From NCBI GenBank assembly GCA_009782435.1, contig WRJA01000018.1:1-34159 (forward strand): a stretch of DNA of 34,159 nt. Reading direction: 5' to 3'. This DNA comes from Oscillospiraceae bacterium (GTDB taxonomy: Bacteria; Bacillota; Clostridia; Oscillospirales; Oscillospiraceae). The translations under genes were made by a program, and so were the position numbers. Shown in pieces: positions 11,202 to 13,308 of the stretch; the stretch's first letter is position 1, and each line of letters opens with the position of its first letter. Under the pieces are notes generated by a model, which did not search any database, was not told where the DNA came from, and worked only from the letters and a program-made list of their open reading frames with translations.

Positions 11202-12263
11202 TCAATCGGTATATACGATTGGTTTAATCAGATCCGGAGTCTTTTCGGCCATCAGATTAAAAGCGTCCTCTATTTTATCAAAGCCGTAAAACTTGTGTGT
11301 AATGAGTTTGGCGGTATCGACACGACCGTATTTGATAAGCTCCATGAGTTTTTTAAGGCGCAACGCTCCGCCGGGGCAAAGCCCGCATCTGATGTCCTTT
11401 CCGGAGAGGCCGAAACCCCAGGCGGCTGCCGGCATGGAAAGCGTTTCGGAGATGTTAAAGAAAGCTACGCTTGATATGATACCGCCGGCTTTTGTCATTT
11501 CCGCGGCTGTGCGAAGGGTGTCCATGTCTCCGCCCGCGAGAATGACCCTGTCGGCGCCGCTTCCGGTCATCTCAAGCACTTGTCGGGCAAGGTCGCCTTC
11601 TTTATAGCTGAGGATATCATTCGCGCCGTATTCCTTTGCGAGTTTGATGCAGACCGGCCTTGTTCCGACGCCGATTATTCTGCCGGCGCGGCTGACGGCG
11701 GCCCCGGCCACAGCCATAAGCCCCACAGGTCCGATGCCGATGACAACGACTGTATCGCCGGATGAGATTTCCGCCATCTCCGCAGCGTAAAATCCGGTCG
11801 TCATCATATCGACCGCCATTAGAGCAGCCTCCGGGGAAACTCCGTCCGGAAGAAGGGCGAGATTGGCGTCGGCATGGTTCACGTGAAAAAACTCACCCAT
11901 AACGCCATCCTTACGGCGTAAAAACTTAAAACTCTCCGTCATGCCGCTGTCGTGCGCGGCGCACCGGGCATCCTGTACACCGAGTTCCGTCCAGTCCGGC
12001 GTAACACTCGGAACAACAACGAAATCACCGACTTTTATTTTTTTGACCATATTACCGATCTCGACTACCTCGCCGACGGCTTCATGTCCTAAGATCAGGT
12101 TTTTTGCGTTCGGGTCTTCGCCGCCGTTCATCATGGTATGGATGTCAGATGTGCAGGGCGAAATTATTTTCGGCCTAATGACAGCGTCCTGCGGGCCGGG
12201 AACGGGCCTGTCTTTTTCCAGCCATCCCGGGCTGCCGACGGAAAGCATACCGAAACCTTTCAT
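11202..12263 (-). CDS. adh: NADP-dependent zinc alcohol dehydrogenase (isopropanol type)
   Basis: This is a medium-chain zinc dehydrogenase closely resembling the Thermoanaerobacter brockii and Clostridium beijerinckii secondary alcohol dehydrogenases, which interconvert ketones such as acetone and secondary alcohols. Catalytic zinc ligands C37, H60, E61 and D152 are present. The Rossmann motif GIGPVG is at 176-181. G200-T201-R202 with Y220 fits the NADP-phosphate pocket of these enzymes. The structural-zinc four-cysteine loop is absent, as expected for this group. At 353 residues it is normal length. GGAGGG seven bases before the ATG fixes the start. The gene begins 16 bases after the end of a decayed TRAP permease gene, so it was probably the last gene of a transport operon. 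Its present promoter is unclear; readthrough from secG is possible. Confidence 0.93.
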   Translation of the reverse strand: MKGFGMLSVGSPGWLEKDRPVPGPQDAVIRPKIISPCTSDIHTMMNGGEDPNAKNLILGHEAVGEVVEIGNMVKKIKVGDFVVVPSVTPDWTELGVQDARCAAHDSGMTESFKFLRRKDGVMGEFFHVNHADANLALLPDGVSPEAALMAVDMMTTGFYAAEMAEISSGDTVVVIGIGPVGLMAVAGAAVSRAGRIIGVGTRPVCIKLAKEYGANDILSYKEGDLARQVLEMTGSGADRVILAGGDMDTLRTAAEMTKAGGIISSVAFFNISETLSMPAAAWGFGLSGKDIRCGLCPGGALRLKKLMELIKYGRVDTAKLITHKFYGFDKIEDAFNLMAEKTPDLIKPIVYTD

Positions 12264-12279: not shown

Positions 12280-12976
12280 TCAGCCGACCGTAGTTTTCAT
12301 AAGGCTCGGAATAAAAAGGCTCAATTCCGGCACTAAGGTCAGCAAAAGAATATGGGCCAAGTCGGCGGCCAAGAACGGAAATATCCCCCTGAACGCCGCC
12401 GAGGTAGCCCGGAAGTTTGGACAGTGCCATAAACCGCAGGAATACATAAGCGCCGACAAGCAGAAATTAAACCATTGCCGAGTTTTTAAGAGCCTCCGCA
12501 GAGGATACGCCGATCTTTCCCTGTATTCGCCTGTTTAAGATGGTAATAATAAGTGAAACACCGGCTCCGATCGCTCCGGCCTCAGTGGGAGTGAACCAAC
12601 CTTGATATATGCCGGTCATGATAATCAGGAAAAGCAGTATGACCGGCCAAACGCTTTTTGTGGATTTTATTTTCTCACTCATGGGGATTCTTTCCCCTTT
12701 GGGAATTAGGGTCGGCTTAACCTTGCCGATAATAATAATCGTTATAATATAAAACAGCACCTGCGTTACGCCGGGGATAATACCGGCCATAAACAGAGTG
12801 CCTATGGACTTCCGGGTTATCAGCCCGTATATGATGAAGCAGATGCCGGGCGGTATAAGCACGCCGACGGTGCCGCCTGCGGCAATGGCTCTTAAAGCTA
12901 TGGAGTCGGCGTATTTTCTCTGTTTCATTGCGGGGCAAGAGACTTTCCCCATTGTGACTGCGGTTGTGACACTACC
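12280..12976 (-). pseudogene. Decayed TRAP transporter large permease (DctM-like)
   Basis: DctM proteins form the main membrane subunit of sodium-coupled TRAP transporters for organic acids. The remnant starts in mid-protein with SVTTAVTMGKVSCPAMKQ near 12976; roughly the first 120 residues of a normal protein are missing. It runs through AAGGTVGVLIPPG and FTPTEAGAIGAG to an in-frame TAA at 12467-12469. Homology continues after the stop (FLLVGAYVFLRFMALSKLPG) to about 12394. It then jumps to another frame at 12390, where the family C-terminus RGIFPFLAADL... ends at a TGA at 12280-12282. The piece of permease between these parts is deleted. The gene therefore has a 5' truncation, a nonsense codon, an internal deletion and a frameshift. 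No DctP or DctQ remains. Confidence 0.85.
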
Positions 12977-13080
12977 CGGCTCCGCCCGAAGAGCGGGAGG
13001 CTTAGGAAACATAAAAAATATTAATTCTTCTGAACAGACCGGCAACTGCGTTTATCGCGGCGCGAGTCTTTTTGTGAGAA

Positions 13081-13308
13081 TTATATAAGGTTTAATACGA
13101 GAGTAAGGACGACAAACGTAAGTGCGACCCATTTTGTCATCTTGGCGAGTTTTTTGTCCAACGTTTTCGCTTTGCCTTTGGACATGAAAGTATCGGCTCC
13201 GCCGGCAATGGCTCCCGACAGTCCCGCGCTTTTGCCGGACTGAAGCAATATTACCATTATCAGGAACAATCCGGCAAGGAGTTGTATTATAGTGAGAGCG
13301 ATAGTCAT
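13081..13308 (-). CDS. secG: Preprotein translocase subunit SecG
   Basis: SecG is a small membrane subunit that aids protein export through SecYEG. The 75-residue product has two membrane helices (about 2-22 and 53-74). The linking loop contains the family stretch LLQSGKSAGLSGAIAGGAD. I prefer the ATG at 13308, spaced nine bases from GGAAGGA, over a TTG three codons upstream that overlaps that site. The usual Firmicute neighbours rnr and smpB are absent; downstream lies the TRAP pseudogene. There is no obvious terminator after the stop, so transcripts may run on. Confidence 0.9.
   Translation of the reverse strand: MTIALTIIQLLAGLFLIMVILLQSGKSAGLSGAIAGGADTFMSKGKAKTLDKKLAKMTKWVALTFVVLTLVLNLI

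Follow-up and report, generated by a model that had tools for sequence, protein, structure and literature searches.

The locus and its closest relatives

DctM is the large permease subunit of TRAP transporters (PF06808/TIGR00786); a functional member has a complete, uninterrupted frame of ~430 residues, and in a dctPQM operon its gene has dctP and dctQ adjacent to it. The closest relative that we found for the locus described here is a full-length DctM paralogue (L010) on contig C50 of the same genome, which is 58% identical over residues 24-192 of the open part of the remnant and has the C-terminal end in common with it. The C50 gene is a full open frame that lies after an open frame placed as dctQ, and its 3' neighbour reads like a short-chain dehydrogenase (both labels are our own reading of the frames), whereas the remnant adjoins secG and has a zinc alcohol dehydrogenase (ADH) gene on its 3' side. 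The window, i.e. the whole stretch of DNA that was analysed (34,159 nucleotides), is contig C18 of an assembly (genome G000) of 127 contigs with an estimated contamination of 5.8%; it contains no SSU rRNA from which the organism could be placed by 16S. The features are as follows.

11202..12263, minus strand: intact zinc alcohol dehydrogenase gene of the NADP-dependent secondary-alcohol/isopropanol type, starting 16 nt after the dctM stop
12280..12393, minus strand: true DctM C-terminus in a shifted frame, with five extra residues and then TGA at 12282-12280 (alignment to the C50 paralogue)
12394..12409, minus strand: junction left by the internal deletion, 16 nt against 97 codons (291 nt) in the C50 paralogue, a net loss of 275 nt that shifts the frame
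12410..12466, minus strand: DctM homology past the stop in the same frame, 19 residues long, with 79% identity to the paralogue on C50
12467..12469, minus strand: premature TAA in frame with the remnant (open frame and C50 alignment)
12470..12973, minus strand: middle part of the dctM remnant, an open reading frame whose alignment to the C50 paralogue (open frame of 450 residues) begins at residue 132
12974..13080, minus strand: spacer between the truncated dctM and secG, with no dctP or dctQ, second copy in the genome or Rfam match
13081..13308, minus strand: secG, encoding the SecG preprotein translocase subunit (75 aa), single copy, the upstream neighbour (Pfam SecG, E 2.3e-20)

The middle and C-terminal parts of the remnant align clearly with DctM. 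Pfam PF06808 matches 12973-12401 with 116.8 bits (E 5.6e-34) across one internal TAA, and NCBIfam TIGR00786 (dctM) matches the open part at E 2.4e-37, with 128.6 bits against a family cut-off of 268.45. When compared with intact DctM proteins in a small database of fetched sequences, the 19-residue piece after the stop gave a best E of 4e-11 and the C-terminal piece one of 9.4e-13; significant homology is thus found separately before the stop, after it and at the C-terminus. The last 33 residues of the C50 paralogue score 108 without gaps against the C-terminal frame, while their best score in the rest of the window is 23 (12 frame-chunks, all frames). The homology at this locus is beyond chance, and the preliminary description was right that it resumes after the stop and that the true family C-terminus returns and ends at 12280, with DctM matches in the segment 12280-12390.

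The remnant departs from the family in having lost the first 116 residues and in carrying an in-frame stop, a net internal deletion of 275 nt and a frame change. The complete permease frame expected of a functional DctM is absent from the locus, and the lesions present (the TAA, the lost N-terminal part and the deletion with its frame change) preclude a full-length product. We therefore read the locus as a pseudogene of the TRAP transporter large permease DctM, with a probability of about 0.94. The other DctM genes of the genome, 24 of them full length and free of stops, speak for this reading. The locus is a dead gene of an ordinary kind, derived from one for a well-known transporter subunit, and had been correctly seen as such in the preliminary description, save for the count of lesions and the proposed operon. 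For annotation, it should be recorded as a pseudogene and not as a hypothetical protein of 192 aa.

Lesions in the remnant

A frameshift-tolerant alignment of the window DNA with the C50 protein runs in one frame from residue 132 at 12973, through the TAA, to residue 320 at 12410; it returns in another frame and reaches the last residue of the paralogue at 12298, with one frame change in all. The C-terminal frame has its stop (TGA) five codons further on, and the stretch of the C50 frame opposite the junction zone lies between residues 320 and 418. Provided that translation of the C50 gene begins at methionine 16 of its open frame, the N-terminal loss amounts to 116 of 435 residues (27%), so that the truncation reported earlier is real, but is smaller than the missing third that was claimed. 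The in-frame TAA at 12467-12469 is present on the minus strand as had been described. The loss of a permease segment and the change of frame, placed earlier at about 12390, are real as well, with the C-terminus resuming from about 12393; they need not, however, be separate events, since 275 is not a multiple of 3 and the deletion alone explains the frame change. With these two possibly forming a single event, the earlier count of four separate lesions is too high and the minimum is three: most simply, the aligned sequences require loss of the 5' part, a nonsense codon and an internal out-of-frame deletion.

In the best-supported account, a rearrangement took the first 116 codons along with whatever preceded them, normally dctP and dctQ, leaving the rest of the gene next to secG. 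What remained of dctM was struck by a nonsense mutation and by an internal loss of ~275 nt, which also changed the frame. We infer the order of these events, as well as the loss of dctP and dctQ together with the 5' part. What is left cannot yield a complete permease and is most likely without any function itself.

Since the window comes from a metagenome assembly, the assembler might have joined different dctM copies and so created false deletions and a false stop. The number of contigs (127), the estimated contamination (5.8%) and the presence of 24 full-length paralogous dctM genes speak for such an artefact; against it, no paralogue in the genome is closer to the remnant than 58%, which is too far for assembly collapse, and the same paralogue is the best or second-best match of the middle part, the post-stop piece and the C-terminal piece. 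We regard a misjoin as highly improbable. The stop codon by itself could be a consensus error, but an error in one base would leave both deletions unaccounted for.

The 192-codon open frame extends over 13045-12467 on the minus strand, its first ~24 codons being spacer, and DctM homology begins within it at 12973. A reduced yet functional small membrane protein encoded by this frame is extremely unlikely. The frame is open and has kept conserved DctM residues, departing at 4 of the 34 positions conserved at 80% where 35 intact proteins depart at 3.5 on average; nevertheless, its start codon is a TTG in unrelated spacer upstream of the homology, and the product would lack both the 116 N-terminal residues and the greater part of what lies between positions 320 and 418 in the open frame on C50.

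The upstream neighbour and the 5' break

At the 5' side of the remnant, secG stands in place of the adjacent dctP and dctQ genes of a dctPQM operon. No Pfam match to dctP or dctQ was found in the 28 window ORFs scanned in frame (several of which have no match at all) or in secG. SecG was found in 60 of the 61 genomes of the family sample. Neither an ADH nor a DctM gene lies within ~1.5 kb after secG in the best 29 of the 59 relatives with a secG match (60 searched). The ORFs on the 3' side of secG (loci L082-L110) vary among the 29 relatives that were read, the largest cluster of similar ORFs having 4 members; as they differ from relative to relative, the family seems to be variable on this side of the gene.

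A GC-rich near-palindrome at 12978-13001, resembling a transposon end, was considered as an insertion-sequence scar at the 5' break and rejected. It folds no better than shuffled sequences (z -0.15 and -0.29 on the two strands), and no second copy with up to 3 mismatches occurs in the genome, although repeats can drop out of such assemblies. The 151 bases around it have only short, chance-level matches elsewhere in the genome, and the one TnpB-type match of the genome sits on another contig, giving no support to a scar. Between 12200 and 13600, no Rfam match was obtained at E up to 1 and promoter-like sites are at shuffle level (3 against a shuffle mean of 2.2). Terminator-like sites in the same range are somewhat above it (4 against a mean of 1.8, sd 1.4), and no site of either kind was used here.

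The downstream alcohol dehydrogenase

The ADH can be aligned almost from end to end with NADP-dependent secondary-alcohol dehydrogenases whose structures have been solved (3ftn, E 6.3e-126), and 18 of the 19 sequences listed among its structure matches bear that name. ADH genes of the same type, at 47-54% identity, occur in 8 of 40 relatives from other genera of the family. Within the stretch read of each contig, DctM lies upstream of the ADH in none of these eight, the contigs of G025 and G034 being less informative as they end ~1 kb upstream of the gene. In G023 and G015 a DctM gene is found within 3 kb of the ADH, on the opposite strand. An intact dctPQM-adh operon, for which the preliminary description suggested comparing sister genomes, was not encountered in the comparison of these eight genomes and the 29 secG loci, and with no DctM upstream of the ADH in any of the eight as far as they were read, an ancestral operon of this kind is unsupported.

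The 16-nt spacing suggests that the dctM remnant and adh are co-transcribed. It is conceivable, though very unlikely, that the remnant has been retained because it is transcribed and serves as a leader or spacer separating secG from adh, with adh now expressed by readthrough from secG; were this true, decay of the permease gene would have put a fermentation enzyme under new control.

Age of the decay

Beyond the lesions themselves, the pseudogene shows little point decay. Conserved alignment columns were taken from 35 different intact DctM proteins. Of the 9 columns conserved at 95% or more, the remnant deviates in 1 (intact proteins: 0.31 on average, at most 3 of 10); of the 34 conserved at 80% it deviates in 4 (3.5 on average, at most 10 of 31), and of the 51 conserved at 70% in 5 (9.0 on average). 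Since the remnant breaks with conserved sites at roughly the rate of intact proteins, there is no sign of decay by numerous point changes, and a frame kept this well counts against the pseudogene reading. Its GC3 of 0.553 falls within the range of 0.519-0.751 for the 16 listed intact dctM open frames of the genome, which include one gene fetched twice (L007 and L018). This fits a recent loss, and the recent decay proposed in the preliminary description is plausible from these sequence comparisons, but it carries no date, as the genus is represented by this genome only. Among 394 genomes of the order, no intact orthologue of the remnant was found (with a threshold of E 1e-38, a single other genome had a match, at 42%), and the best matches outside its own genome are 42-43% identical in the family sample of 61 genomes, its own included. 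This restricts statements on the age of the loss and leaves the status of the locus as a pseudogene unaffected. A scan of named genomes gave one weak relative, a Nitratireductor MAG, at 31%.

DctM genes elsewhere in the genome

The dead gene is of little importance by itself: where a genome has many paralogous uptake systems, some are lost, and here the pieces are still readable. It points, however, to an unusually large set of TRAP transporters. The 2.15 Mb assembly has 26 places matching PF06808, namely 24 full-length genes without stops, one cut by a contig end (C79) and the remnant. Across 60 other genera of the family, 106 such places were found in 35 genomes (E at most 1e-20), one of them with an internal stop; 25 genomes lack them altogether, and with a median of 1 and a maximum of 12, most genera have none or one. 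The seven best paralogues of the remnant (46-58%) outscore every match in the other genomes sampled from the family, suggesting that the subgroup to which the remnant belongs has expanded within the lineage. The 24 full-length DctM genes, against a family median of 1, are more notable than the pseudogene itself.
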